From the NCBI RefSeq assembly GCF_004363095.1, contig NZ_SNYO01000007.1:62001-126000 (forward strand): a stretch of DNA of 64,000 nucleotides, written 5' to 3'. The stretch comes from Actinomycetospora succinea (GTDB taxonomy: Bacteria > Actinomycetota > Actinomycetes > Mycobacteriales > Pseudonocardiaceae). Position numbers and translations under genes: made by a program. Below are positions 47,255-60,517 of this stretch, piece after piece (the stretch's first letter is position 1; every line of letters begins with the position of its first letter). The notes below the pieces were generated by a model. The model was not told the DNA's origin. It worked only from the letters and a program-made list of their open reading frames with translations, and did not search any database.

Positions 47255-48292
47255 GTGACCGCCATCCCCGTCGACGGTGACCCGATCGCCGCCCTGCGCG
47301 CCGTCGCCTTCTACCTCGAACGCGAGCGCGCCGAGACCTACCGGGTGAAGGCGTACCGCTCGGCGGCCGAGAAGCTCGCCGAGCTCGACCCCGACGACGT
47401 CGCGAAACGTGCCCGCGCCGGCACGCTGACCGACCTCAAGGGTGTCGGCAAGAAGACCGCCGCCGTCGTCACCGAGGTCCTCGACGGCGGGACCTCGGCC
47501 ACGCTCGCCGACCTCGAGGCGCGCCACACCGAGCCCGTCGCGGGCGGCGCCGCGATCCGCGCCGCCCTGCGCGGCGACTGCCACACGCACTCGACCTGGT
47601 CCGACGGCGGCAGCGACATCCTCGAGATGGCGCGCACGGCCCGCGACCTCGGCCACGAGTGGATGGTGCTCACCGACCACTCCGAGAACCTCACCGTCGC
47701 CAACGGTCTGACCCCCGAGCGGCGCCGGCTCCAGTTCGACGTGATCGCGCAGGTCAACGAGGAGCTCGCGCCGTTCCGGCTGCTGCGCGGCATCGAGGTC
47801 GACATCCTCGAGGACGGCGACATCGACGCCCCCGACGACCTGCTCGAAGAGCTCGACCTCGTCGTCGCGAGCGTGCACTCGAAGCTGCGGGCGCCGAGCG
47901 AGCTGATGACCGCCCGCATGGTCGCCGGGGTGTCGCACCCGCTGGTCGACGTCCTGGGGCACTGCACCGGGCGCCTCGTCACCGGTGGGCGGGGGACGCG
48001 GCCGCCGTCGACGTTCGACGCCGAGGCCGTGTTCGACGCGTGCATCGAGAACGGCGTGGCCGTGGAGATCAACTCGCGGCCGGAGCGCCTCGACCCCCCG
48101 CGCACCCTGCTGCGCCAGGCCCTGGCGTCGGGCTGCGAGTTCGTCGTCGACACCGACGCCCACGCCCCCGGCCAGCTCGACTGGCAGCCCTACGGCGCCG
48201 AGCGCGCCGAGGAGTGCGAGGTGCCGGTGGACCGCATCGTCAACACCCGCTCCGCCGACGACCTCGCCGCCTGGCGCTCGCTCAACCGGTGA
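47255..48292 (+). CDS. Helix-hairpin-helix/PHP-domain protein (PolX-like without polymerase)
   Basis: A 345-residue protein. The N-terminal HhH region (VDGDPIAALRAVAFYLERERAETYRVKAYRSAAEKL, LKGVGKKTAAVVTEVL) resembles the DNA-binding 8-kDa part of PolX. The C-terminal PHP domain has metal ligands in GDCHTHSTWSDGG, VLTDHSENL, GIEVDIL, VASVHSKL, GHCTGR and DTDAHAPGQL. The palm/polymerase domain is absent, so it is likely a nuclease or phosphoesterase. Its end overlaps the opposite-strand ArsR-SRPBCC gene by 11 bases. Confidence 0.85.
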   Translation: MTAIPVDGDPIAALRAVAFYLERERAETYRVKAYRSAAEKLAELDPDDVAKRARAGTLTDLKGVGKKTAAVVTEVLDGGTSATLADLEARHTEPVAGGAAIRAALRGDCHTHSTWSDGGSDILEMARTARDLGHEWMVLTDHSENLTVANGLTPERRRLQFDVIAQVNEELAPFRLLRGIEVDILEDGDIDAPDDLLEELDLVVASVHSKLRAPSELMTARMVAGVSHPLVDVLGHCTGRLVTGGRGTRPPSTFDAEAVFDACIENGVAVEINSRPERLDPPRTLLRQALASGCEFVVDTDAHAPGQLDWQPYGAERAEECEVPVDRIVNTRSADDLAAWRSLNR

Positions 48293-49070
48293 CGGCGACC
48301 TCGCCGGTCTCGAGCACCGACTTGAGGTTCGACAGGATCCCGGGCCATCCCTGCGACACGCCCGCGCGCATCTCGCTGTCGGGCGCGAAGTCGTCGTGGG
48401 TGACGGTGAGCTTCACGGCCTGACCGGCCGGCTCGATGTCGAACGTGACCTTCGAGATCTTCTCCTGCCGCAGCTCGGCGAGGCGCTCGTCGCTCCACCC
48501 GAACATCTCCGCCATCTCGGGCTGGTAGTTGTGCCAGCTGTACGACAGGCGCCGGGGCGGGTCGGCCTCGAGGACGTGCTGGTCCCAGTCGTGGTGCTCC
48601 TCGCCCTGCATCGACCACAGCACCTTCGCGCCGGGCGTCCAGTCGGACTTCGGCCCACCACCGTCGAAGTAGCGGGTGATCCACGCGGGGTCGGTGAGCG
48701 CCTGCCAGAGCTTCTCGGGCGTCGTGCGGATGTAGGTCACGTAGACGAAGTCGTCGGACACGTCGGTCTCCTCCAGAGCGCTCTTGAGATCGGCGAGGGC
48801 CTCCGCCCGCGCCCGGTCGTACCGCCGGATCCACCGGTCGGCGACGTCGTTGATCGGCGCGGCGTTGAGGTGGTGGTGCTTCTCCCGCCCGTGCCACGAC
48901 GTGACGACGAGCCCCGCGTCCTCGAGCACGCCCAGGTGCTTCGCGACGGCCTGGCGGGTCATCTGCAGACCCTCGCCGAGCTCGCGCAGCGACTGCCCGC
49001 CGCGGTCGCGCAGGGCGTCGAGCAGGGCCCGCCGACTCGGGTCGGCGAGGGCCCGGAACACGTCGTCCAT
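48282..49070 (-). CDS. ArsR-type HTH fused to SRPBCC (AHSA1) domain
   Basis: A 262-residue fusion. The N-terminal ArsR winged helix (DDVFRALADPSRRALLDALRDRGGQSLRELGEGLQMTRQAVAKHLGVLEDAGLV) spans about 1-95. An AHSA1/START-like ligand-binding domain (about 110-255, VYVTYIRTTPEKLWQALTDPAWITRYF, WDQHVLEADPPRRLSYSWH) follows. This suggests a repressor that senses a hydrophobic ligand directly. ATG 49070 has GGAG 5 bases upstream; GTG 49076 is an alternative. Two 18-bp operator-like palindromes and a near-consensus promoter lie just upstream. Confidence 0.87.
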   Translation of the reverse strand: MDDVFRALADPSRRALLDALRDRGGQSLRELGEGLQMTRQAVAKHLGVLEDAGLVVTSWHGREKHHHLNAAPINDVADRWIRRYDRARAEALADLKSALEETDVSDDFVYVTYIRTTPEKLWQALTDPAWITRYFDGGGPKSDWTPGAKVLWSMQGEEHHDWDQHVLEADPPRRLSYSWHNYQPEMAEMFGWSDERLAELRQEKISKVTFDIEPAGQAVKLTVTHDDFAPDSEMRAGVSQGWPGILSNLKSVLETGEVAVTG

Positions 49071-49084
49071 CACCACTCCGATCA

Positions 49085-49158: not shown

Positions 49159-49187
49159 TTGCGGGGTGATCGCGACGCGCCTACGTT
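49159..49187 (+). promoter_or_regulatory. Promoter of the mini-ORF/structured RNA
   Basis: TTGCGG (49159-49164), a 17-base spacer and TACGTT (49182-49187) give a housekeeping-type promoter pointing right, back-to-back with the ArsR promoter. Transcription would start near 49194, about 25 bases before the mini-ORF. Confidence 0.5.
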
Positions 49188-49194
49188 GGGACGT

Positions 49195-49446
49195 ACACGG
49201 GAGAGGAGGTGGTCCAGCGTTGAAGAACGACAGGACTCGTGAGGTGTCCGTCAGCTAGTCGCTCGAAGGCCGTGGAATTGGCCGGTCCGCAGGCACAGTG
49301 ATCCTGCGGCAGGGCGGCCAGCGAATCCAGGCAGGACACCAGCCCCCGGAGCCCCCGACCTCGTCCAGTCGGGGCCCGATCGCCCGGCATCGCGCCGGGT
49401 CGACGGGAAGCCGCTCCGGGGGCCTGCCTGTCTCCGGGGCAGGCCA
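49195..49446 (+). ncRNA. Candidate structured RNA containing a 12-codon ORF
   Basis: Downstream of the promoter the + strand shows six perfect stems. P1 is 49243-49249 with 49334-49340, pairing the end of the mini-ORF with downstream RNA. P2 is 49287-49293 with 49303-49309. P3 is 49343-49352 with 49413-49422, enclosing 49353-49359/49368-49374 and 49383-49388/49394-49399. P4 is 49421-49428 with 49438-49445, terminator-like. P3 and P4 share bases 49421-49422. I match it to no known RNA family. Boundaries are estimates. Confidence 0.45.
49220..49258 (+). CDS. 12-aa mini-ORF with very strong Shine-Dalgarno
   Basis: AGAGGAGGTGG, nearly full complementarity to the 16S 3' end, lies 9 bases before a TTG that opens a 12-codon ORF (LKNDRTREVSVS, read with Met at the start) ending in TAG. 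Its last codons pair with 49334-49340. It could be a leader peptide whose translation controls folding of the RNA, or an sRNA-encoded peptide. It is too short to judge by codon bias. Confidence 0.45.
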   Translation: MKNDRTREVSVS

Positions 49447-49463: not shown

Positions 49464-49970
49464 CTACCAGCGCGAGGCGTGCAGCCGGTCGTCGACGCCG
49501 AACGACGAGCCGTAGGGCGCGTCGAAGGTCGAGCCGTAGGGGCGCTCCCCGGTCGTCGCGCCCGGGGTCTCGCCGAGCGGGTCGCCCGCGAGCGGGCGGC
49601 CGTCGAACGCCCAGCCACCGGTCGTGGGGGCCGGCTCCGGCGGCGACTCCAGCGGGTCGCCGTGCCGGCCCAGGGGCTCGGAGAGCGCCGACGACGATCC
49701 GGGCAGGGAGTCGGACGGCGTCTCGGTCCGGGTGTCCGGCGGGGTCATCCGGGTCCGGCTCGGGCCGGGACCGTGCGGGCCGGTGCCGGGCAGGCCGCCC
49801 TCGGCGACCCACTTCGCCTCCTGCGCGATCCGGTACGTCTGGCACGGCCAGCTCGCCCGGGAGCCGCCCTGGAAGCACTCGTGGCAGTTCTGCTGCGCGT
49901 CGGGCACGTGCTCGGCGAGCACCTTGCGCCAGACGTCGGGCATCTCGGACATGACCACGGCCATCGACAT
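49464..49970 (-). CDS. Conserved hypothetical protein with Cys/His cluster
   Basis: A 168-residue protein that I do not recognise. Residues 1-60 look folded and contain DAQQNCHECFQGG and SWPCQTYRIAQEA, a possible zinc site of three Cys and one His, followed by KWVAEGG. The remaining 100 residues are Pro/Gly/Ser-rich and probably disordered. ATG 49970 has GGAGAGGAG at 9 bases. It converges on the structured RNA region. Confidence 0.6.
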   Translation of the reverse strand: MSMAVVMSEMPDVWRKVLAEHVPDAQQNCHECFQGGSRASWPCQTYRIAQEAKWVAEGGLPGTGPHGPGPSRTRMTPPDTRTETPSDSLPGSSSALSEPLGRHGDPLESPPEPAPTTGGWAFDGRPLAGDPLGETPGATTGERPYGSTFDAPYGSSFGVDDRLHASRW

Positions 49971-50507
49971 GCGGTGGCTCCTCTCCGTGCGGGCGGCGCG
50001 CCTGGGGGTCAAGCACTCCGTCGGGGCCCGCGGGCAACCGGTGCAGTGGGTGAGGCGTCGAGATCGGGGAGTGCTCCACCTGTCGCATCGGTCGTGCGCG
50101 CCGGAGGCGGAACCTCCGGTACCCGGTGTTCGTACTCGTTTCCTCACCGCGGCACGACAGTGACCCGACGGTGACCATCCGTGACCCTGCGTCAGACGGT
50201 CACCCGACGCTTCGTTCTGGCGAGACCCAGCATGCGGCGGCGTCGGATCCGGGTGCAAGTCCCTGACCAGGCGAAACGCCCCGTCATGTGTCCGGGGCGT
50301 CACGCGGGCTCACCTGGTCGGGAGCGGCCGACTGCACCGAGTGGGGACGCGTGCACGGAGCGCGCCGACGTCAGCGGGCGCGCCGGACGTTCGCCGAACG
50401 CCACGATGGATGCGCCGAACGGACCAGTGATGGACGGGTTCGGCCTGCTCTCGGCGGGTCCGGCGAGTCGCCCGGTTACGCTTTCACCGCGACTCGTCGT
50501 CGTTGCG
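49971..50507. other. 537-bp intergenic region before tRNA-Lys
   Basis: I find no convincing gene. It contains a nested hairpin: outer 10-bp stem 50262-50271 with 50313-50322 (one G-U) and inner 8-bp stem 50276-50283 with 50293-50300. GTGACC/GGTCAC half-sites cluster at 50161-50206. A TACGCT hexamer at 50476-50481 is a possible tRNA promoter -10. Confidence 0.4.
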
Positions 50508-50581
50508 GGGCCTCTAGCTCAATGGGTCAGAGCTACGGACTTTTAATCCGTTGGTTGTGGGTTCGAGTCCCACGGGGCCCA
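50508..50581 (+). tRNA. tRNA-Lys(TTT)
   Basis: All four arms fold: acceptor GGGCCTC with GGGGCCC, D-arm GCTC/GAGC, anticodon arm ACGGA-CTTTTAA-TCCGT with anticodon TTT, and T-arm GTGGG-TTCGAGT-CCCAC. The discriminator is A50581 and CCA is not encoded (ACCC follows). The 3' half is the attachment site of the AICE that follows. Confidence 0.95.
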
Positions 50582-50583
50582 CC
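50547..50583 (+). repeat. attL, 37-bp direct repeat within tRNA-Lys
   Basis: It covers the anticodon-stem 3' side through the tRNA 3' end plus CC. It is identical to 60481-60517 and regenerates an intact tRNA after integration. Confidence 0.95.
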
Positions 50584-50637
50584 CCTCGCCCTGGTCAGGG
50601 CGTTCCACTGTGCAGTTGTCCAAGATCGCGGTACCGC

Positions 50638-51813
50638 TTACGGGCCGGAAACGCCTTCCTCGCCCTCGTCGTGGTGGGCGCGCTCCAGCGCCTCGGCCGC
50701 CGAGGACGACACCGCCCGCCGGCCCAGGTACCGGTTCTGTGTCATCGACACCTGGGCGTGCCCGAGCTGGTCGGCGATCTCCCGAGCGGTCAGCCCGGCG
50801 CCGTCGAGCACCGTCGCGGCCGTCTTGCGGAACACGTGCGAGGTGACCCAGGCGAACTCCTCCGAGCCCCTAGCCGCCCGCAGCGCGCGCAGGGTGTTCG
50901 ACGGGTCCCGCCAGCCGCCGAGCGAGTCCGGGAAGACGGGGCCGCGACCGCCGGCCGCGAGGAATCGACGCCGCAGGATCGAGCGCCCGTACCCGGGGAC
51001 GACCAGCGTGCGCTCCCCGGCGCTGGTCTTGGTCGCCTTGCGCACGAGCCCGACACCCTTGATCCGGATCACCGTCCAGTCGATCGCCACGGTGCCCGCG
51101 TCCAGGTCGACCTCATCCCAGCTCAGCGCGAGCGCCTCACCGATCCGCACCCCGGTCGCGAGCATGAAGGCGCACAGGTCGGGCAGGTCCTTACGCCGGG
51201 CGTCCTCGTCGCCGGCCAGCCGGCTCACCCACGCCTTCCGTTCCTCGGCGGTCAGCGCCCGAGGCCGGCGCTTCGGCTGGCCGCCCACGTTGGCGATCTC
51301 GCGGACGGGGTTCGTCGGCAGCGCCCCGTGCCGCACCGCGAGCCCGAGCACGCCCGAGAGCACGGTCCGGACCAGCTTCGCCGTCGGGGCGCCCTGGTGG
51401 AGGTGGACGAGCTGCACCACCCGGTCGACGCGGGGGACCGTCAGTTCCCGCAGCCGCAGCTCCCCAACCGCGGGCAGGACATGCCCCTGGAGCGTGGACC
51501 GGTAGACCTGGGCGGTGCCGGGCGAGCGCCGGCCCTGCTCGACGAGGACGTCGACCGCGCTCATCCACTGCTCGGCCGCGACCGAGAACCGGGAGTCGCC
51601 GGTGAGCCCGGAGCCACCGGTGACCTTCGCCCGGTCGCGGAGGTCCTCCCGCAGGCGGTTCTTCGCCGCCGCAGCGGTGGCGGCCACCCGCTTCACCTTG
51701 CGGGTCACGCCGTCGTGATCACGGAAGCGCGTGACGGCGCAGAAGCCGCCGCCGGCCACGGGATGCGTGGTGATGTTGCCGTACGTGCCGATGGGCAGGG
51801 GTGGACGAGGCAC
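50638..51813 (-). CDS. int: AICE tyrosine recombinase (integrase)
   Basis: A 391-residue phage-type integrase that recombines attP with the tRNA-Lys attB. It has an arm-binding N-terminus, a SAM-like core domain (VEQGRRSPGTAQVYRSTLQGHVLP) and the catalytic domain with Arg in TGVRIGEALALSWDEVD, the H-X-X-R box SHVFRKTAATVL, LGHAQVSMTQNRYLG with the second His and the nucleophilic Tyr. GTG 51813 begins 3 bases after the xis stop. Its 3' end lies 54 bases from attL. Confidence 0.93.
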   Translation of the reverse strand: MPRPPLPIGTYGNITTHPVAGGGFCAVTRFRDHDGVTRKVKRVAATAAAAKNRLREDLRDRAKVTGGSGLTGDSRFSVAAEQWMSAVDVLVEQGRRSPGTAQVYRSTLQGHVLPAVGELRLRELTVPRVDRVVQLVHLHQGAPTAKLVRTVLSGVLGLAVRHGALPTNPVREIANVGGQPKRRPRALTAEERKAWVSRLAGDEDARRKDLPDLCAFMLATGVRIGEALALSWDEVDLDAGTVAIDWTVIRIKGVGLVRKATKTSAGERTLVVPGYGRSILRRRFLAAGGRGPVFPDSLGGWRDPSNTLRALRAARGSEEFAWVTSHVFRKTAATVLDGAGLTAREIADQLGHAQVSMTQNRYLGRRAVSSSAAEALERAHHDEGEEGVSGP

Positions 51814-51815
51814 GG

Positions 51816-52004
51816 CTACCCCACCTTCTCGACCTGCTCGTCGAGCCACCGCTCGATCTCGGCCTCGCGGTACCTCACGTAGCGGCCGACGCGGGTGCCT
51901 CGCGGGCCGTAGCCGGTCCGGCGCCAGTGGTAGATGGTCATGATCGGGACGCCGAGGAACTCGGCGAGGTCCTGGACGGACCAGAGTCGCTCTCGCGGAT
52001 ACAT
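51816..52004 (-). CDS. xis: Excisionase (MerR/HTH_17 type)
   Basis: A 62-residue winged-helix directionality factor. ERLWSVQDLAEFLGVPIMTIYHWRRTGYGPRGTRVGRYVRYREAEIERWLDEQ is the HTH_17 pattern seen in AICE Xis proteins. It sits between rep and int on the same strand and is coupled to int. Confidence 0.9.
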   Translation of the reverse strand: MYPRERLWSVQDLAEFLGVPIMTIYHWRRTGYGPRGTRVGRYVRYREAEIERWLDEQVEKVG

Positions 52005-52020
52005 CGGGTTGGTCTCCTGG

Positions 52021-53529
52021 TCAGGCTGCGGTGTCGGTCTCCTCCTTGGCGGCTCGCCTCCTGGCTCTGGCGTTGGCGGCCGAGGTGTTGGCGAGCAGCG
52101 CGTCGGCGCTGGTGTGCCAGCCGATGCCGGCGAAGACGAGCGAGTTGACGATGACCTCGGTGGTGTCCTCGTCGGCGAGTTCCTCGTCCTCGTCGGGGCG
52201 CGGAGCGTGCTCGCGGCGCCAGTCGCGACGGGCCTGGCGCAGGGCGCCGAGGGTGGTCGAGTAGCGCCGGGAGCGGGTGGAGAAGTGGCCGCCGAACCCG
52301 AGCATGTGCGCCCAGCGCTGGAGCCGGCCCCAGCCGGCGGCCCACTCCTGGCTGTCGGCCTGCTCAGGTCGGGTGCCGAGGTGCCAGCAGGTGTCGATCT
52401 GGCGGCCGGGGTGGGTGTCGAGGCGGGCGTACTCGCGCACGGTGTCGGGGCGCAGCCGCTTGGACGCATGGCCGGCGAGTTCGGTGGCCTTGGTGGCGTA
52501 CTTCGCAAGGTAGCCGGCGACAGCGCCGGTGGTGATCTCGCCGGTGTCATCGAGGTCCAGGCGCGAGAGTCGCACGGGGCGCGGGTCGACCTGCTCGCCC
52601 CACACGATCGGCCAGCCGGCCTCGCGGGCCGGGTGCGGAGCGGTGGCGAACCGGGTGTCCTCCACCGCTCGACGGAGCACGGTGGCGAGGTGGTGGGCGC
52701 CGACCCGGGCGTCGGGGACGAGGACGGCGTCAGCGTCCTTAGGGTCGCGGCCGTCGAGGCGGACCAGGGCGTGCAGGTGCACCGCGCCGCGCGCCTGGAA
52801 CTCGGCGACCTTCGTGTAGCTCAGACGCAGCGTGATCCGGTGGCGCTTCTCCAGGGTCTTGATGCCGCGTCGGGCGGCGATCATGGTGCGGCGCCACAGC
52901 TCGCCGGCGTGAAGGTTCCACACGGCCTGGGCGGGGTGGTCGTAGCAGTCGAGGCACAGCGGGCTGCCCAGCTCGGGCGCGTCGTCGTCGTGGCGGTCGA
53001 AGCACGCCAGCGGGACGCCGTGCGGGCAGTGCTCGAGGTGGCGGCGCGGGCGGCAGGCGATGGTGCGCCCGGCGCGGTCGGTGCGGTGCGCGTGGACCGG
53101 CCCGAAGGACGGGGCGGTGACGGTCAGAAAGACGCACGGGTGCTCGGCCACCGAGGCGGGGACGCCCTTGCCGCCGACGAGGCCGGCGGTCACGAGCTGG
53201 TAGGTGTCGGCGCGGTAGGTCTCCGCGCACCCGGCGCACACCGAAGCGCGGCGGTTGCCGCAGGGCGTGTACAGCACGCCGTCGGGCATCTCGGTGGTGT
53301 GGGTGTCACGGGTGATCCGGCCGGTGGAGGCCTCGACGCGGGTCACGGTGCCGACCAGGCGGATCGGGTGCGAGCAGCCGGCGGCGTTGGCCACGTGGCT
53401 CATCCACCGGTTGTGATCCGCGCGCACCGCGGTCGCGAGCTCGGCCAGGGAGGCGGTCTTGGCGTCGCGAGCTCGTCGCCGGGCCCCGAGGGACTCGACA
53501 GTCGCACGAGCGTCGGTCGCGGTGGTCAT
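52021..53529 (-). CDS. repSA: RepSA-like rolling-circle replication initiator
   Basis: A 502-residue initiator. Zn-finger-like Cys pairs occur at PCGNRRASVCAGCAETY and in SPLCLDCYDH. The HUH metal motif is in GAVHLHALVRLDG (near 248) and the catalytic Tyr region is VAGYLAKYATKATE (near 341), the order typical of pSAM2 RepSA-type proteins. It nicks the double-strand origin during AICE replication. The ATG overlaps the FtsK-like gene stop (ATGA). Confidence 0.88.
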   Translation of the reverse strand: MTTATDARATVESLGARRRARDAKTASLAELATAVRADHNRWMSHVANAAGCSHPIRLVGTVTRVEASTGRITRDTHTTEMPDGVLYTPCGNRRASVCAGCAETYRADTYQLVTAGLVGGKGVPASVAEHPCVFLTVTAPSFGPVHAHRTDRAGRTIACRPRRHLEHCPHGVPLACFDRHDDDAPELGSPLCLDCYDHPAQAVWNLHAGELWRRTMIAARRGIKTLEKRHRITLRLSYTKVAEFQARGAVHLHALVRLDGRDPKDADAVLVPDARVGAHHLATVLRRAVEDTRFATAPHPAREAGWPIVWGEQVDPRPVRLSRLDLDDTGEITTGAVAGYLAKYATKATELAGHASKRLRPDTVREYARLDTHPGRQIDTCWHLGTRPEQADSQEWAAGWGRLQRWAHMLGFGGHFSTRSRRYSTTLGALRQARRDWRREHAPRPDEDEELADEDTTEVIVNSLVFAGIGWHTSADALLANTSAANARARRRAAKEETDTAA

Positions 53530-54407
53530 GCCGCGTCCCGGGCGCGTAGGCCGGTGGCGTGGTCGGCCAGGGCGTAGACCTGCTCGTCGGACAGGTACGC
53601 GGACTTGATCCGGCGTGGTTCGCCGCCCTCGGCCAGCAGGAGTCCCACGCCCTTGTCTTCGGGCGCGATGTCGGCGGCGGTGTGGCCTCGGGTCGCCCAG
53701 CCGGCACCGAGCACGATGTCCGAGCTGCTATCGGTGGTGCAGCGGAACGCCCACCGGTAGCCGAATAGGTCACGCAGTGACGTGGGGATGATGTCCGAGC
53801 TGGGGCGCTGGGTGGCGGCGACGACGATGATCCCGGCGGCCCGTCCCCGGGCGACGAGGTCGCGCACGCCGACGGAGAAGGCTTCGCGCTGGGTCTTCGT
53901 GCCAACGGTGGCCGAGTAGTAGGCGACCTCGTCGAGCACCACGACTACGGGCTCGATGCCGTGCACGGCGTCGTCGGGGGTGATCTTGCGGCGGCGTTCG
54001 GTGTCGAGCAGCTCGTAGCGGCGGTCCATCTCGCCCTGCAGCGCGCCGAGGGCGTCGATGGCATCGTCGAGGTCCGGGCCGACGAACCGCTCCGCGCAGG
54101 TGCGCCAGAGGCCGAGTTCGACGAGCTTGCCGTCGAAGAGCCAGAGCCCGCAGTCGGTAGCCAGGGCGGCGTGGCCGACGATGCAGTTCAGCCCGACCGA
54201 CTTGCCGGCGCCGGGCTCCCCGGCGAGCAGAGCGTTGCGGTAGGCGAGGGTCACGCGGACCGCACGGCCGTACTCGTCGACCCCGAGGTGGATCGGGTCC
54301 CAGATCGACAGGACGGACGGCGCGGGCGCCTCGTTGCAGACGGCCGGGGTGCGAACGGCGGTGACCCAGTCGCGGAGCAGGGCGCGGAGGCGGGTCGGCT
54401 CAGACAT
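53526..54407 (-). CDS. FtsK/SpoIIIE-like conjugative DNA motor (TraB/TraSA type)
   Basis: A 293-residue hexameric ATPase core that moves double-stranded DNA between mycelia. Walker A is GEPGAGKSVGLN (near 73), Walker B is VVVVLDEVAYY, and ATQRPSSDIIPTSLR is the FtsK-family sensor region. ATG 54407 overlaps the stop of the alternative frame of the upstream gene by 8 bases. As sequenced, the same reading frame is open back to 55232, so a fused 568-residue TM-motor protein is also possible (see upstream entry). Confidence 0.85.
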   Translation of the reverse strand: MSEPTRLRALLRDWVTAVRTPAVCNEAPAPSVLSIWDPIHLGVDEYGRAVRVTLAYRNALLAGEPGAGKSVGLNCIVGHAALATDCGLWLFDGKLVELGLWRTCAERFVGPDLDDAIDALGALQGEMDRRYELLDTERRRKITPDDAVHGIEPVVVVLDEVAYYSATVGTKTQREAFSVGVRDLVARGRAAGIIVVAATQRPSSDIIPTSLRDLFGYRWAFRCTTDSSSDIVLGAGWATRGHTAADIAPEDKGVGLLLAEGGEPRRIKSAYLSDEQVYALADHATGLRARDAA

Positions 54408-55223
54408 AGTCCGACCAGTCCCCGCCACGGTCCGGCACCGCGGTCCGGTCCTCCTTCGCCCGCTCGGTGTGGTCGATGACCAGCGGGACGTCGTCGTGCT
54501 CGTCGAGCGTCGCGCGCGGAGCGGGGACCGACGTACCGGCTCGGTTCCCAGTGCCCGACCAGTGCCGGTTGGCCGGCGTCGGCGGAACGATCCGGTGCCG
54601 CGCGGGGGCGCCTCGCCGGTGGTGGCGGTCCAGTCGTCCAGCTCGGAGGCGATCAGCTCGCAGGCCAGCGGGTCGCGGCGGATCACATCCACCTTCACCA
54701 GGGCGGTCATCCGACGGGTCGGGGTGACGCGGGCGTCGCGGGCGAAGCACCCCGAGGCGATCCACTCGACCTCGCCCTCGACTTCCGACGGGCTGATCCC
54801 GGCGCGCAGCAGCAGCCACACGGTCTCGCCGACCTCGGTCGGGTGCGACCACAGGAACAGCGGAGCGGCGCGGGAGAAGTTCAGGCAGCGACGCTCGACG
54901 AGGACCTGACGCAGCCGGTGGCGGGTCATCGTCGCCATTGCTCGTCGGCTCACGCACCTGCGCAGGGCGGGAACCGCCGCCAGGACGGCGATCACGACGG
55001 CGACGAGAGCGAGCGCGGCGCCCCAGGGCATCCAGGTCGTGAGCAGCAGCCAGCCGGCGACCACGGCGAGGCCCGCCATGATCTCGGCGCGGAGCCGGAT
55101 TGCCAGGCCCGCGACACGTGCGGCGGGGTGCGTGGTCGGGGCGGTGATGATCTCGAACCCGTCGGTACGAGAGGCGCGGAGGAATGGACGGGATCGGGCG
55201 GAAAACGAGGCGGAACGGGCCAT
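54400..55223 (-). CDS. AICE transfer-associated membrane protein, frame change at a G/C run
   Basis: The N-terminal part (about 1-200) has two TM helices (IMAGLAVVAGWLLLTTWMPWG, ALVAVVIAVLAAVPAL), then HRLRQVLVERRCLNFSRAAPLFLWSHP and a soluble ISPSEVEGEVEWIASGCF domain like the N-terminal part of TraB-type motors. Past base 54608 this frame turns Arg/Thr/Ser-rich. The -1 frame looks genuinely coded (IVPPTPANRHW, DDVPLVIDHTERAKEDRTAVPD) and stops at 54400 beside the motor start. The switch falls at a run of five G (54604-54608). A sequencing indel, a mutation or programmed slippage could explain it. Confidence 0.6.
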
Positions 55224-55340
55224 GACGATCACTCCGTGGAGAGCCGAGGCCGGACCGCGCCGGCCGGAAGATGAGACGAGGGAGGGAGGTCGGGGCTGCG
55301 GGGAAGTCAGCCCCGACCCCCGTGGGAGCGGACGGCCCGA

Positions 55341-55592
55341 TCAGTCGGGCCAGGCCAGGGCCGCGCAGATGCCCGCACACGCGAAGACCTGCGAGCCGGT
55401 CTCGGAGCGGCCGACCGGCACGGCCGCGATGCCGGCGGGCCCAGAGCGAGTGCCGGGTACCGGGGCGGGCCGGTAGGCGTCAGGAAGCTCGGGCCAGGTG
55501 AACGAGCGCTCGCACATGACGCACTCCGTGCCGTCGGCCTGAGTGGAGTTGAGTCCATGCCAGAGCGCCTCGCCGCGGGCTGCGGCGGTCAC
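55341..55592 (-). CDS. Small Cys-rich AICE protein
   Basis: An 83-residue protein with CVMCERSFTWPELPDAY and a later VFACAGICAALAW, a possible four-Cys zinc ribbon. I do not recognise a named family; small zinc-ribbon proteins are common in AICEs. The GTG start overlaps the stop of the next gene upstream (GTGA), so they are co-translated. Confidence 0.6.
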   Translation of the reverse strand: MTAAARGEALWHGLNSTQADGTECVMCERSFTWPELPDAYRPAPVPGTRSGPAGIAAVPVGRSETGSQVFACAGICAALAWPD

Positions 55593-55882
55593 GAGCCCGA
55601 GCCCTTCGGCGTGGGCGCCGACGCGGGCGTGTGCTCGATGGCGTCCGCCCTGAACGCGACCCCGGAGCGCTGCGCCTGCTGCCAGGGGATCGCGACGAGG
55701 TTCACCGGCCGGACCTCCGCGCCCTGACCGACGTCAGGTGCCCCCGGAGTGGTCACGGGGATGATCTCCGCACCGTCGTCGTCGAGCTTGATCAGCTGCG
55801 TGACGAACAGCGGGGTACCGGTGATGCGGTCCGTGCGCTGGCGACCCTCCATGTCGTTCTTCGGCTTCGGGACCACGCCCAC
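55589..55882 (-). CDS. Small conserved AICE protein, unknown function
   Basis: A 97-residue protein with a beta-rich pattern (RITGTPLFVTQLIKLDDDGAEIIPVTTPG, VRPVNLVAIPWQQAQRSGVAFRADAIE) similar to small proteins encoded between rep/tra and the regulators of other AICEs; an OB-like fold is possible. The start is GTG 55882; a later in-frame ATG at codon 11 is possible. Translationally coupled to the 83-residue protein downstream. Confidence 0.6.
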   Translation of the reverse strand: MGVVPKPKNDMEGRQRTDRITGTPLFVTQLIKLDDDGAEIIPVTTPGAPDVGQGAEVRPVNLVAIPWQQAQRSGVAFRADAIEHTPASAPTPKGSGS

Positions 55883-56058
55883 GCTCTAGCGGGACGCCGA
55901 GGTGTCCACTTTGATCGCTGCCATGCCTGCGGTCCTCCAGGGACTCGTCGCGCGATTCCCGATCTGTTCGGGGCGCAACACCAGGAAAACCGCAGGTCAG
56001 CGACTCGACCCGCACAAGAGTGCGACCCGCACAGATGTGCGGGTCGTGTGAAGTGCGA

Positions 56059-56616
56059 TCAGGCGGTCGCTGCTCGGCGCGATTCCAGCGCGCGGACGAC
56101 CCATTCGGGGTCGAAGCCGGCGACGACATCCCCACCTGTACCGGAACGAACGGGAACAGGCGGTCCCAGACGACCGGAGTGTGGGTCGAGGAACATCACA
56201 CCGGCCGACGTGAGCGTGTCAAGGGTCGACGCCCATGCCGGGTGAGCCCACAGCCGGTCGTTGACGAACAGCACCGACACGATGGTCGCTCCGGTGCCGA
56301 GTGCATCGCACAGAGTCCCGGTCACGTGGTTGTCCATGACGCCGCGGGCGATCTTGTTGGCCGTGTTAAAGGTCAGCGGGAACGCCACGACGTGATCGGG
56401 GCGGCTCTCTCGTCGTTGCTCGTCGGGCTGGCGACGGCGTGTGGACGCAGGTGCTTCCGACGCCTTGGACAACGTGTCGGCGTCGATCCATTCACTCCCG
56501 GACTCGGTCACGCCGGCCGACACCGACCAGCCGGCGCCGACCAGCGCGCGCGCCACCTCGTCAGCTCGGGCTGCCAGCGGAGCACCGCAGACGACCAGGC
56601 CAAGAGGCGACGACAT
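56059..56616 (-). CDS. Flavoprotein-domain protein (PPC decarboxylase-like)
   Basis: A 185-residue protein of the flavoprotein superfamily. The N-terminal PLGLVVCGAPLAARADEVARALVGAGW resembles the Rossmann start, and the central VVAFPLTFNTANKIARGVMDN matches the FMN-binding APATFNTANKIAxGIxD-type motif of actinobacterial flavoproteins. It follows the Xre regulator stop by 4 bases. This regulator-flavoprotein pairing recurs in actinobacterial mobile elements; its role is unknown. Confidence 0.75.
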   Translation of the reverse strand: MSSPLGLVVCGAPLAARADEVARALVGAGWSVSAGVTESGSEWIDADTLSKASEAPASTRRRQPDEQRRESRPDHVVAFPLTFNTANKIARGVMDNHVTGTLCDALGTGATIVSVLFVNDRLWAHPAWASTLDTLTSAGVMFLDPHSGRLGPPVPVRSGTGGDVVAGFDPEWVVRALESRRAATA

Positions 56617-56620
56617 GACG

Positions 56621-57826
56621 TCAGTGCAGCACACCCGCGCGGGTCGCGAGAGCTTGCAGCGCCGAGCCGTGGCCGCGCTTGGACCGCGCGAGCATCTCGC
56701 GAATGACCTCTCGGGCCATCACGTTGTGCGCGACCGCTTCGGATGCGGCGCTCTCCGCCTCGAGGAGGTTCAGCGTCGCCTCCGCGTCGCGCTTGCGCTG
56801 CGCCTGGGCCCACGCCAGATCGAGATTCACCTGAGCGCGACGGCTCGCGAGACCCTCGGGCAGCCGGTCGAGGTCGACCGCGGCCGCTGCGTCGAGCGCC
56901 GCTGCCGGGTCGCCGAGCTCGGCTGCCACCGAGACCCGGTGGATCGCAACGTTCGTCGGGCCGAAGGCGGTCCAGGCGTAATTCGCGTCGTGCCCGAGCA
57001 TCTCTGCGAGCATCTGAGCGCGATCGAGCCGGCGCTCCGCCTCCCACTTCTCAGCGCGACGGGCGGCGATCACGCTGGATATCAGCCAGAGTGCGCCGGC
57101 TACGGAAACCAGCGCCGGGTCGTCCGACCGCACGCGCGGCACGAGCTGCTCAGCCATCCGCGTCGCGAGCTGCTCGGCCTGGTCGACCTGATCCGACCGC
57201 AGGAGCGCAGTCACGACCTGATAGATCGCCATGCCCTGCACGACGTTCGAGTCGGTGCGGCCTGCTGCCATCGCCGCGCGATCCGCTGTCACAGCGCCGA
57301 GGTCGCCGACGCCGAGCTTCGTCAGCAGCTTCGAGGCGACGACGTATGCCTCGACATAGGACAGTGCCGCCTCGCGGTCATCACCGGCCGCGCCCAGAAG
57401 CGCCGAGTCTGCCTGTCCGATCAGCAACGGCAGCTCGCGGATGACGCTCGCGTACTTGGCCGCCTGATACTCCTGGTGGAGGTCCGAGGCCACGGCGCGA
57501 AGCGACGTCGCCGTCGGCGCCGGTACGTCGTCCTCCACGAGGTTCGCGTATCGAGTGAGTACCGAGCGAATCTCGCCGAGTCCCTCGGCCCGAGGGCCGC
57601 CGTTCGGTGCAAGCTGCCACGGAGTGCCTGTGAGCGCTTGCACCTCAACGTCGAGCAGCCGCGAGAGGTCAAGGAGAACGGACATGCGGTCGACAGATCG
57701 AACGCCACGCTCGACCTGCGAAAGCCAGGACTCAGAACGTCCCAGCAAGCCTGCTAGGGCGGCCTGACTGATGCCGCGACGGCGACGATAGGTAGCGATT
57801 CGCTTGCCTATAGACTCGCCGACCAT
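56621..57826 (-). CDS. Xre-family HTH regulator with TPR-like C-terminus
   Basis: A 401-residue regulator. HTH_3 spans about 4-60 (IGKRIATYRRRRGISQAALAGLLGRSESWLSQVERGVRSVDRMSVLLDL). A long all-helical region with TPR-like repeats follows (EAALSYVEAYVVASKLLTKLG, QVDQAEQLATRMAEQL, DPAAALDAAAAVDL). Similar regulators sense small molecules or peptides through the TPR part. ATG 57826 was chosen because the domain begins there, with CATACT 6 bases upstream; the frame is open seven codons further. It diverges from the cargo gene and may control the element. Confidence 0.85.
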   Translation of the reverse strand: MVGESIGKRIATYRRRRGISQAALAGLLGRSESWLSQVERGVRSVDRMSVLLDLSRLLDVEVQALTGTPWQLAPNGGPRAEGLGEIRSVLTRYANLVEDDVPAPTATSLRAVASDLHQEYQAAKYASVIRELPLLIGQADSALLGAAGDDREAALSYVEAYVVASKLLTKLGVGDLGAVTADRAAMAAGRTDSNVVQGMAIYQVVTALLRSDQVDQAEQLATRMAEQLVPRVRSDDPALVSVAGALWLISSVIAARRAEKWEAERRLDRAQMLAEMLGHDANYAWTAFGPTNVAIHRVSVAAELGDPAAALDAAAAVDLDRLPEGLASRRAQVNLDLAWAQAQRKRDAEATLNLLEAESAASEAVAHNVMAREVIREMLARSKRGHGSALQALATRAGVLH

Positions 57827-57913
57827 GCATTCAGTATGACACAACAACTCCTTGGATGCACCAACAAAGACTCCTGGATCGCCGAAAATAATGACTCGAC
57901 AGTAGGAGGATGA

Positions 57914-58639
57914 GTGCCAACGTTCTTAGCCGTGCTATCCGCGATCTCGCCGATTCTTACCGCGGCTGTCGCTATCGGAGCGATTGTCTACACTCGGCGG
58001 AGTGCCTCCGACACAATCAAGAAGGATCTCGGCGTCAAGCTGTGGGACAAGAGGACGGAGGTCTACCAGGACCTCATGTTGTACGTGAACGAGAGTGACA
58101 TCCGAAAGATGGGCTCAGTCGAAGATTTCTGCGAGAGAGCGCGAGCTGGTGACTCCGCTCTCATTCCCGTCGACGTCGACAGCGAGGAATGGAAGCGTCT
58201 GGGCTCTCGGGTAAGCATCTATGCTTCGAAGAATGTCGCTTCCCTCTTTTCTTTTTGGAAGTTCACTCTCGCGGGTTGGTCGTGGAACCGATCTGCTCTG
58301 GTCGTGAACTCAGATAAGGACAACCCGGACTTTGACCGTGATGCCGCCGAACGAGATGAAGAGGAGACGGCTAAGTCGCTGACCCTTCTTCGAGACGAGC
58401 TACTCTTGCATATCCGGGCGGAGCTCGACTTTCGTCAGCGTGCTATGCCCAAGATCGAGTTTCGCCGAGGTGCTGTTGACGGATTCCAGGCCATTCGAAT
58501 GACGACGCGTGCACCGTTCAGTCCGATGGAATTGGTCGCCGACTCGTACGGCATGATGATTGCTTCCGGCCACCGAGAGCCGGATGGCTGGAGCTTCACC
58601 CTTGTGTTCGATCGGGACCTCTTCGGGCAGGACGGCTAG
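57914..58639 (+). CDS. AICE cargo: N-terminal TM protein of unknown function
   Basis: A 241-residue protein. One TM (about 4-26, FLAVLSAISPILTAAVAIGAIVY) is followed by TRRSASDTIKKDLGVKLWDKRTEVYQDLM and a mixed cytoplasmic domain. GTG 57914 has a strong AGGAGGATGA. Codon use is clearly lower in GC than the chromosome, pointing to recent transfer. The K-X-W-X-K-R-X-E-X-Y pattern recurs in many orphan actinobacterial proteins, but no function is known. A hairpin follows. Confidence 0.7.
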   Translation: MPTFLAVLSAISPILTAAVAIGAIVYTRRSASDTIKKDLGVKLWDKRTEVYQDLMLYVNESDIRKMGSVEDFCERARAGDSALIPVDVDSEEWKRLGSRVSIYASKNVASLFSFWKFTLAGWSWNRSALVVNSDKDNPDFDRDAAERDEEETAKSLTLLRDELLLHIRAELDFRQRAMPKIEFRRGAVDGFQAIRMTTRAPFSPMELVADSYGMMIASGHREPDGWSFTLVFDRDLFGQDG

Positions 58640-58667
58640 TGGTGAGGATTTTCTCTACGTCTTCAAG

Positions 58668-58685
58668 CCGGCCCTGACGGGCCGG
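58668..58685. terminator. Hairpin after the TM cargo gene
   Basis: A perfect 7-bp G/C stem (58668-58674 with 58679-58685) with a 4-base loop lies 28 bases past the stop of the TM cargo gene. Confidence 0.5.
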
Positions 58686-58769
58686 ACGGGCGGGCTCGCT
58701 GCGGCCCCGCCTCCTGTCTTCGACCCGGCGTGCCGCGCGGCCACGCCCGCCGAGGCCCCCCCCGTTCCG

Positions 58770-59324
58770 CTATAGACGAGGAAGCCCTAAGCGGCTGCGC
58801 CAGTCGATCACCACGGTCATGTAATCGAAGCAGGCCAGGTCGAGCCACCTTCCTTGCAGGCTGCCACCCTTCGCGGTCGTGCGCACGATCTCGCTCCGGA
58901 TTTCGTCAGCGATGTCAAGATTCGATAGTTCCGAATAGTCGAAATCGAGCTCGAACTCCTTGCCCTGCCACTCATAGCGTTCCTGACGAAAACGTCGTTG
59001 AAACCGCTTCTGCGGCAGTTTGTACGTATACGCTTTGACGCACGGTCCCGGACCGTCATGTATGAGCCTGAGCCAGCCGATCACCTGAGCGTACGGGAAT
59101 CCGCCTCGGTCATGGACGAGCGAGTCCATCAGTCTGTCCTCAACGCGCTGTATCTGCTCAGGCGAGGCAACTTCGACCACGGATGGCAACATCATGCTCC
59201 TAGCGGTTTCGCGCAGCTCCTCGCGTTCCTTATCCCATCGTTTGGGAGTTACTCGGTAGGCGGCGATCTCAAAGAGCGGTGAGCCGAACTCGGCTCCGAT
59301 GTTCTCGACCGGGCGTCTCTTCAT
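58770..59324 (-). CDS. AICE cargo: protein of unknown function
   Basis: A 184-residue protein that I do not recognise. The N-terminal half is helical (WDKEREELRETARSMMLPSVVEVASPEQIQRVEDRLMDSLV), and the rest is rich in aromatic and charged residues (FPYAQVIGWLRLIHDGPG, RFRQERYEWQGKEFELDFDYSELSNLDIADEIRSEI). It has no TM. GC is lower than the chromosome. It is convergent with the TM cargo gene, an arrangement typical of independently acquired cargo. Confidence 0.65.
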   Translation of the reverse strand: MKRRPVENIGAEFGSPLFEIAAYRVTPKRWDKEREELRETARSMMLPSVVEVASPEQIQRVEDRLMDSLVHDRGGFPYAQVIGWLRLIHDGPGPCVKAYTYKLPQKRFQRRFRQERYEWQGKEFELDFDYSELSNLDIADEIRSEIVRTTAKGGSLQGRWLDLACFDYMTVVIDWRSRLGLPRL

Positions 59325-59490
59325 TGCGAGAGATTATCGAGGTTCTAGCGGCTAAGCTAGCTCCGCGAGCTGAGGGCGGGGTAGGGGTAGTCCTCGCTCG
59401 CCGGGTCGAAGTGCGCTCTACCTGTAGCTATGGGTCGACTTCCGACACGACACTAGGCTAAACGGGTAATCTTGCTTGAAGATCCAAAAC

Positions 59491-59556
59491 AGTTGTCAGA
59501 TTTGTGGTTCCCCCACCCGTCTCGCAGTCTCACCAAATGTCAGAGGACCTGACATT
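59491..59556. promoter_or_regulatory. TGTCAG operator-like cluster
   Basis: A perfect inverted repeat AATGTCAG-N5-CTGACATT (59536-59543 and 59549-59556) and a third TGTCAG half-site (59495-59500) lie upstream of the small gene at 59601. They may bind the element's regulator. Confidence 0.35.
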
Positions 59557-59600
59557 GGCAAAGTGGCGAGGACGTTCTGCTCACCGCTATGAAGGTCCCT

Positions 59601-59873
59601 ATGAACGAAGACCACGACCACGGGGGCCTTAGCCCAAACCGTTGCCATTCTCTATCTCGGCAATTCGACGCCGATAAAGGCGAAGAGCGTCGAGTTCCTC
59701 GTCGTGCGGACCCTCGCGAGCAGTCTACTGCTACGTCGTCAGGTGCACGCGGGCGCGCGCGTGCGCGATTGCGCCGCGCCCTCTACGTAGCTGGAGGGCT
59801 TCTGCTCTCCGGGCTAGCCACCGAGGCAGGCAGCAAGATCCTTGATGCCCTCGTATCTTGGATCGGACTCTAG
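59601..59873 (+). CDS. Small AICE protein with C-terminal hydrophobic helix
   Basis: About 90 residues. The N-terminal half is charged and His/Arg-rich, and the C-terminal half has one hydrophobic helix (YVAGGLLLSGLATEAGSKILDALVSWIGL) consistent with a tail anchor or a small membrane peptide. ATG 59601 has AAGG 6-9 bases upstream; ATG 59589 is in frame. No homology is recognised. Confidence 0.45.
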   Translation: MNEDHDHGGLSPNRCHSLSRQFDADKGEERRVPRRADPREQSTATSSGARGRARARLRRALYVAGGLLLSGLATEAGSKILDALVSWIGL

Positions 59874-59974
59874 GAGTGCCGTCGGCGGGGCGCTCGCCGC
59901 CCCCGCACCCCAGGCGACCTCCGGGGAGGGGGTAGGGCAGGTCTCCCCGCCGGCCACCGCGAGGGCGTAGCACC

Positions 59975-60036
59975 CCAGGGCCAGGGGGCCAGGTCGTTCA
60001 GCGCGTCGGGTGCTCCACCTGGCCCCCTGGCCCTGG
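59975..60036. repeat. Perfect 20-bp inverted repeat with 22-base loop
   Basis: Arms 59975-59994 and 60017-60036 are exact complements. The G/C content makes it very stable. It may be a terminator for the small upstream gene or a single-strand origin for rolling-circle replication. Confidence 0.6.
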
Positions 60037-60124
60037 CGCGCTCCGGGAGGACCTGGCCGACGGGGAGACCGCACAGGCCCGTCATGTCTGGACTACGTCG
60101 ACGAGCTCGGGCAGCGTGCCGGAC

Positions 60125-60325
60125 ATGACCGAGCAGGAGCAGGTCCAGGCCCAGGGTGAGCAGGATGCCTCGATCGCGCTCGCCGAGGAGGACTACTGGC
60201 AGATAGCCGGCGGCGGGATGCTCACGGTCCGACCGGTCGAGGAGTGGGTCCCGAGGGCGCACCGACGTGCCTACCTCGACGGTGCGGCGTCCGTCCTCGG
60301 CTACAAGCCGCTCATCTCGGCCTGA
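60125..60325 (+). CDS. Small protein at the right end of the AICE
   Basis: A 66-residue ORF (from GTG 60116, 69 residues) with an acidic, Gln-rich N-terminus and VRPVEEWVPRAHRRAYLDGAASVLGYKPL. It has chromosome-like GC3. I do not recognise it. It ends 155 bases before attR. Confidence 0.45.
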   Translation: MTEQEQVQAQGEQDASIALAEEDYWQIAGGGMLTVRPVEEWVPRAHRRAYLDGAASVLGYKPLISA

Positions 60326-60480
60326 CGCCGGGACAAGATCACCGGCACCGCTTACTGCCCTCTACCGGCCGCTAACGACCAGCAGGGCCGGGAGACGGCC
60401 GGAACCTCGCGAGAGCGTCAGCGCAGCTCAGCGCGGGTGCTCACCATCGACCGCGAACGTCACCAAGCCCGGACTACGAC

Positions 60481-60517
60481 TCCGTTGGTTGTGGGTTCGA
60501 GTCCCACGGGGCCCACC
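60481..60517 (+). repeat. attR, 37-bp direct repeat of the tRNA-Lys 3' half
   Basis: Identical to 50547-50583 and flanked by non-tRNA sequence. It marks the right boundary of the element and is not a functional tRNA. Confidence 0.95.

Follow-up and report, generated by a model that had tools for sequence, protein, structure and literature searches.

The window, the whole stretch of 64,000 nucleotides of Actinomycetospora succinea DNA that was analysed, holds a small structured RNA gene on its plus strand, between two reading frames on the minus strand. The upstream frame is an ArsR-type gene divergent from the RNA, as the first-pass annotation of this DNA had said; the downstream one is convergent, and its true start is probably nearer 49973 than the called end. 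The features discussed below are as follows.

48282-49076, minus strand: gene for an ArsR-type HTH fused to an AHSA1 domain (Pfam HTH_20 and AHSA1), divergent
49159-49187, plus strand: promoter read from the sequence, -35 box TTGCGG at 49159-49164, 17-nt spacer, -10 box TACGTT at 49182-49187
49195-49219, plus strand: 5' leader ACACGGGAGAGGAGGTGGTCCAGCG, its ACAC nearly invariant in 82 loci; the Rfam model begins here
49196-49199, plus strand: 5' arm of helix P0b, CACG, in the leader, paired with 49238-49241
49204-49215, plus strand: extended Shine-Dalgarno sequence AGGAGGTGGTCC, able to pair over 12 nt, one of the pairs being G-U, with the 3' end of 16S rRNA
49212-49215, plus strand: 5' arm of helix P0a, GTCC, in the Shine-Dalgarno tail, paired with 49233-49236
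49220-49255, plus strand: mini-ORF of 12 codons with a TTG start, reading M(L)KNDRTREVSVS; stop codon TAG at 49256-49258
49233-49236, plus strand: 3' arm of P0a, GGAC, codons 5-6, in 83 of 83 aligned rows by construction of the locating motif
49238-49241, plus strand: 3' arm of P0b, CGTG, codons 7-8, paired with 49196-49199
49243-49252, plus strand: ORF arm of the long-range helix P1, codons 8-11
49253-49262, plus strand: 5' arm of helix P2, comprising codon 12, the stop codon and the bases after it
49314-49323, plus strand: 3' arm of P2, partner of 49253-49262
49324-49330, plus strand: conserved bulge of the AATNCCA type, between P2 and P1
49331-49340, plus strand: downstream arm of P1, just 5' of P3
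49343-49352, plus strand: 5' arm of the end hairpin P3, paired with 49413-49422
49363-49366, plus strand: GUCC in the apical loop of P3, in 83 of 83 aligned rows and outside the collecting motifs
49413-49422, plus strand: 3' arm of P3, paired with 49343-49352
49421-49428/49438-49445, plus strand: terminator-like stem without a T-run, not conserved
49464-50303, minus strand: convergent downstream ORF with no Pfam domain, in a cluster of 14 downstream neighbours

The plus-strand segment 49195-49431 is a member of the Rfam family RF02471 (Ms_IGR-5). It matches the covariance model over positions 1-184 of 184 with 51.4 bits, above the gathering cut-off of 45, and with an E-value of 1.3e-08 when the whole window is searched and 8.4e-11 in a 401-nt search; the initial claim that no described family fits is therefore wrong. 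The A. succinea genome has a single copy, and the Actinomycetospora records that hold close copies of the window RNA (L051 and L116) are suggestive of the genus. The Rfam model finds the family in 46 of 61 genomes, that of A. succinea included, and in 249 of 394 genomes sampled from the class, which represent 86 of 138 genera, whereas none of 14 control genomes matches; sets of more than 40 genomes were searched with stricter filters, so absences in them are not firm. A covariance model built with the new helices described below (R1, from an alignment of 83 rows) scores the window copy, itself one of those rows, at 135.7 bits; its reach of 47 of the 61 genomes is a small gain. Under the stricter filters, eight near-complete genomes of the same taxonomic family (G018, G022, G023, G025, G027, G029, G030 and G036) match neither model, possibly through repeated loss of a widespread single-copy RNA, and because of these eight genomes the RNA is probably dispensable. 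Across the phylum, a strict pattern matched 18 of 396 genomes, all 18 within the class; the same pattern misses copies inside the class too, and weaker homologues outside it could therefore be missed. One copy (L097), with TTT in place of the start codon, lies in a metagenome bin labelled Spirochaetia, which possibly contains misbinned DNA.

RF02471 was known before as a listed sRNA, as a transcript and from ribosome reads. According to passages of the source papers, the S. lividans transcript SLIV_16488 of this family has RNA-seq support (PMC8079986), the S. avermitilis RNA is reported as an sRNA transcription unit (PMC8780764), and the homologues of M. abscessus and M. smegmatis carry ribosome-protected reads (PMC4974804). 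The latter source, in the part consulted, also describes footprints on a large majority of characterised ncRNAs, and ribosome reads on an sRNA may therefore be background (PMC4974804). The mini-ORF and the new helices are absent from these passages. No function is assigned to RF02471 or Ms_IGR-5 in the open-access literature searched, and a published description may exist elsewhere. Searches under the labels Rv0812 and Rv0813c with sRNA terms gave nothing on this RNA among the matches listed, and the parts of the literature seen on another label, scr4389, contain no link to it. What is new here is the conserved ORF, the helices that pair with it, and a peptide on which no selection is seen.

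The comparison across relatives uses 195 sequences, the window and 194 loci, of which 194 were placed by a locating motif; the one missed (L045) was re-read as a locus with a variant ORF (L238). The placed sequences comprise 187 distinct cores and 136 distinct ORFs. The motif demands part of the Shine-Dalgarno sequence and NGG-ACN-NGT-GAG-GTG at codons 5-9, and neither a start nor a stop codon. The demanded bases, and with them Thr6, Glu8 and Val9, are therefore constant by design of the motif; the counts of start and stop codons do not depend on it. A pattern scan requiring the Shine-Dalgarno sequence, GGAC and GTGAGGTG, again without start or stop, contributed 120 loci among the matches listed, and because this pattern holds parts of the ORF, loci derived from model matches are counted separately below. 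Twenty extra loci were chosen manually among the listed matches to the model that had no locus yet; eight come from one genus (g65), and one (L221) repeats another (L056).

Covariation was assessed in a plain MAFFT alignment (A1) of 83 dereplicated sequences, those with a similarity ratio above 0.80 having been collapsed. Six loci (L087, L097, L120, L127, L136 and L154) were left out when an ungapped search missed their P1 partner, and A1 therefore favours P1; two more (L072 and L140) were removed by hand for Ns or a contig end, and L018 and L039 were manually trimmed to shorter ranges. On re-reading, L120 and L136 prove to be truncated where their contigs end, P1 is paired at 10 of 10 positions in L140, and L087, L127, L154, L072 and L097 can pair, by eye, with one bulged base.

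The 12-codon ORF lies where it was first read, and its start, stop and length are conserved across relatives. A stop follows directly after codon 12 in 194 of 194 motif-placed sequences (TAG 171, TGA 16, TAA 7), none of which has an internal stop; codon 1 is TTG, ATG or GTG in 191, the other three having ATC, ATT and TTT, and CTG never occurs. When only distinct sequences are counted, the stop is found in 187 of 187 and the start in 184 of 187; for distinct sequences derived from covariance-model matches the figures are 73 of 73 and 71 of 73. In all 20 further loci from model matches, 19 of them new and one a duplicate, the ORF is again 12 codons long, between a proper start codon and a stop. 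Read in the frame of the ORF, none of the 83 rows of A1 has a stop triplet before the stop position and all 83 have one there; each of the ten codons that come next shows 0-2. Codons 2-4 are 68% A+T, compared with 30% over the 100 nt downstream of the ORF. Judged from this conservation, the pattern indicates that the mini-ORF is translated.

The signals upstream of the ORF were also correctly identified by the first-pass annotation. Its promoter recurs in 82 loci at a fixed distance from the ACAC leader, with TTG at -36 to -34 and a T/A-rich stretch at -13 to -7; the consensus scanner left the plus-strand promoter unscored, and its support is this conservation. An A-rich element, AAA at -43 to -41 from ACAC and directly before the -35 box, is present in the 82 loci as well and is possibly an UP-like or activator site. 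ACAC itself is the probable 5' end of the RNA. The near-perfect Shine-Dalgarno sequence AGAGGAGGTGG, at 49202-49212, is conserved in the family; GGAGGTG is invariant or nearly so in the 83 rows, partly since most loci were collected with it. The distance from the Shine-Dalgarno sequence to the start codon drifts by locus between 3 and 7 nt, while ORF length is constant.

The fold of the window copy has a z-score of -3.35, none of 200 shuffles being equally stable, and the minimum-energy structure, computed without comparative data, holds P0b, P0a, P1 and P3. A scan of 17205 column pairs that was given no structure places P3, P1 and one unexpected helix, P0b, in its top twelve; rank 13 is no standard pair. 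The perfect pairing of 49243-49249 with 49334-49340 that had been pointed out at first is the 7-bp core of P1, a helix of ten positions of which eight are paired in the window. In A1, P1 is 96.5% paired with 57 double-change cells, and 6 of its 10 pairs are changed on both sides; shuffled columns give 88.7% and 7.5 cells, and slid partners 27-65%. P3, whose 10-bp stem had likewise been noticed, is 92.3% paired and shows double changes at 11 of 12 pairs. Conservation among relatives thus holds for the stems as well as for the mini-ORF, with 187 distinct sequences, the new loci and covarying helices in agreement.

P0b, which joins leader CACR to YGUG in the ORF, is closed by 49199 x 49238, the third of all column pairs in the scan. 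It is 97.2% paired. Its double-change cells number 17, where shuffles give 4.4, and all fall on this closing pair; the other three pairs hardly vary in A1. Over 192 sequences the closing pair is G-C in 119, A-T in 55, T-A in 2, G-T in 2, and unpaired in 14, and one locus (L229) changes CAC/GUG to CGC/GCG, a compensatory change at a second pair. P0a is 97.3% paired, and its support is weak because it shows no double changes; in several loci of g65 the Shine-Dalgarno tail differs from GTCC. Positions of P2 differ in how often they are paired, from 34 to 80 of the 83 rows, and its mid-part varies in length and sequence; its arms fit their own partners at -16.8 kcal/mol, versus -12.8 for arms exchanged between species. 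P2, P1 and P3 abut or nearly so. P0a, P0b and P1 each place one arm in the ORF and P2 places one across its end, which leaves most bases between codon 5 and the stop paired; the exceptions are 49237 and 49242, which are unpaired, and 49257, which often is. Mean RNAfold probabilities are 0.74 for P1, 0.83 for P3, 0.53 for P0a and 0.30 for P0b; a P3 value of 0.0 for the window row in these averages is an alignment-register fault, the window's own fold having P3. Between the helices, the AAUNCCA-type bulge is a candidate binding site, and the GUCC loop and GGAC may contact each other or a constant partner; for a GGAC-GUCC kissing contact in cis, the 6-nt linker looks short for a stacked stem by a simple length estimate.

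RF02471 as drawn in Rfam thus shares its sequence and end hairpin with the window RNA, and differs by P0b and P1, which covary yet are missing from the Rfam structure line. The 5' helix that is drawn there (model 14-19/55-60) is rejected: it is 93.0% paired versus 92.7% in shuffles, 49 of 500 of which reach it, with 2 double-change cells only and an RNAfold probability of 0.00. We read this as a fault of the drawn structure rather than of membership, and the drawn 5' structure should be replaced. The terminator-like stem at 49421-49445 is present as first described and shares bases with P3, but it is local: by eye it recurs in one (L038) of nine readable close relatives (ten were printed, L116 being incomplete there, and L051 and L043 share identical cores), and a terminator scan finds 0 terminator-like sites. 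A switch that sequesters the Shine-Dalgarno sequence was also considered. When the ORF is blocked in silico, the freed P1 arm pairs with the Shine-Dalgarno sequence at 0.58 in the window and at a mean of 0.17 over the 83 sequences, among which it finds no consistent new partner; such a switch is plausible for the window copy and not for the family as a whole.

The divergent locus L238 (46 bits, outside A1) is a natural experiment in which P1 has been jointly rewritten while the ORF signals are kept. Its Shine-Dalgarno sequence, TTG, GGAC, P3 and GUCC loop are retained, as is a TAG in frame; the ORF has 13 codons if it starts at the first TTG and 12 if it starts at the ATG that follows. The P1 partner and the larger part of codons 7-12 have changed together, to GGAGG-A-UUCUGC with GCAGAACCUCC, and remain complementary apart from one bulge. 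The match of the leader to codons 6-8 recurs in a new form at 5 of 6 positions by eye, a helix that RNAfold does not choose, and the fold has a z-score of -5.42.

We propose, with a probability of about one half, that 49195 to about 49431 encodes a free-standing RF02471 sRNA whose fold is opened by translation of its own 12-codon ORF, the peptide apparently being unselected. The untranslated RNA would be a closed rod held by P0, P1 and P2. Each ribosome that starts on the ORF and travels to its stop would have to open P0 and P1 together with the base of P2 and, while bound, would keep them from re-forming; the RNA would therefore alternate between the closed rod and an open, ribosome-bound form. 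The selected trait would be translation itself, reporting ribosome availability or initiation, and the readout could be RNA stability or exposure of the ACAC leader, the AAUNCCA bulge and the GUCC loop to a trans partner. The wider proposal that RF02471 as a family, spread over much of the class Actinomycetes, is translation-gated, with selection on the act of translating the 12 codons and with ribosome traffic setting the fold and in this way signalling ribosome or initiation status to a trans partner, is more tentative, and we place it somewhat below even odds. If gating is true, this would be a regulatory RNA whose short ORF is a ribosome-operated switch with no gene attached. Translation, a new 5' structure and an unselected peptide would turn a widespread actinobacterial annotation into a testable mechanism.

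The first alternative, which we consider unlikely, is a dual-function sRNA whose 12-residue peptide is a functional product beside a function of the RNA. SgrS/SgrT and SR1/SR1P combine a small RNA with an ORF that has a peptide product (PMC11133741, in the part seen). In these systems the peptide is the product; the RF02471 peptide appears to lack selection of its own. The ORF is conserved across relatives, as this alternative would have it, and Thr6, Glu8 and Val9 are identical in the 136 distinct ORFs, although the locating motif demanded those codons. The constant residues, however, coincide with constant or paired RNA (GGAC, YGUG and GGUG), and variable bases hit the first positions of codons 5 and 7 as readily as third positions. 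Of 27 single-step differences that separate near-identical ORFs, a small sample, 5 are synonymous, against about 26% expected by chance, and in L238 residues 7 and 9-12 are changed; conservation of the peptide beyond the constraint on the RNA is not found in these data. Translation, then, is apparently conserved and the peptide sequence is not. The suggestion that the locus codes for a peptide stands in so far as the ORF looks translated, and falls in so far as the peptide shows no selection of its own.

About equally improbable is a second alternative, in which the RNA is a high-affinity ligand of free 30S subunits, a decoy or monitor whose short ORF frees the ribosome again. AGGAGGUGGUCC can form a 12-nt duplex with the 16S end of the same genome, GGATCACCTCCTTTCT, which we take to be the 16S 3'-end motif and which is located once in the A. 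succinea genome, and the constancy of GGAGGUG in the 83 rows would fit such a role. The genome, however, has 2 sites matching AGGAGGTGRTCC plus a start codon, no excess over the reversed pattern (1 + 1), so the Shine-Dalgarno site is not singular. A decoy would also have no need for an ORF locked into P0, P1 and P2, and GGAGG lies 9-13 nt from the start codon, farther than is usual at strongly initiating sites.

A third alternative, an ordinary non-coding sRNA acting in trans whose ORF is a by-product of constraints on the RNA, is quite improbable. Rfam does type RF02471 as an sRNA, and pairing explains many of the conserved bases. Constraint on the RNA leaves unexplained, however, why TAG, TGA and TAA replace one another and a sense codon takes their place in none of 194 sequences, why the start is NTG without CTG, and why the first codons are A+T-rich.

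The last alternative places a target in cis. The L001 locus is flanked by ORFs for a class IV aminotransferase and a THAP4-like heme-binding protein, which are taken to belong to the recurrent neighbour clusters of 57 upstream and 56 downstream proteins. The ArsR-AHSA1 gene of the window is the upstream neighbour in a cluster of 11. As called by a home-made gene caller, the next downstream gene in 189 loci lies on the opposite strand in 98, the window included, on the same strand in 82, and was not called in 9; after dereplication to 78, the numbers are 39, 37 and 2. In 75 of the 189 a gene is called on the same strand with its start no more than 350 nt away; these 75 genes have no common family, being scattered over 7 clusters with 27 outside the 25 largest clusters; a family-wide cis target is therefore unlikely. 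Leader-peptide attenuators such as those of trp and ermC have a short ORF whose translation competes with RNA pairing. The window RNA resembles them in having a short ORF that looks translated and would compete with pairing, and differs in being free-standing, with no common cis gene and no run of codons for the same amino acid. The rnTrpL RNA of Sinorhizobium is a uORF-bearing attenuator RNA that acts in trans and derives from the trp operon leader; it is likewise a short RNA able to work away from its gene, whereas the window RNA has no operon.

A leader-peptide attenuator acting in cis on a downstream gene is thus the least probable reading: the parts are alike (ORF, long-range helix and hairpin) and many loci do have a same-strand gene close by, but these genes share no family, the window's own next gene is convergent, and in the S. 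avermitilis source, as far as seen, the RNA is a transcription unit of its own as an sRNA (PMC8780764). The original choice between an attenuator and a peptide-coding sRNA therefore survives as an RNA gene on the plus strand with a translated-looking mini-ORF and structure, and not as attenuation in cis.

Farther downstream, 50508-60516 of the window is an integrative element of the pSAM2 kind at a tRNA-Lys gene. It carries genes for an integrase (50638-51849), a small HTH protein, a RepSA initiator (52021-53529) and an FtsK/SpoIIIE protein (53526-55232), and 60494-60516, which repeats 23 nt of the 3' end of the tRNA exactly, is probably its other attachment site.
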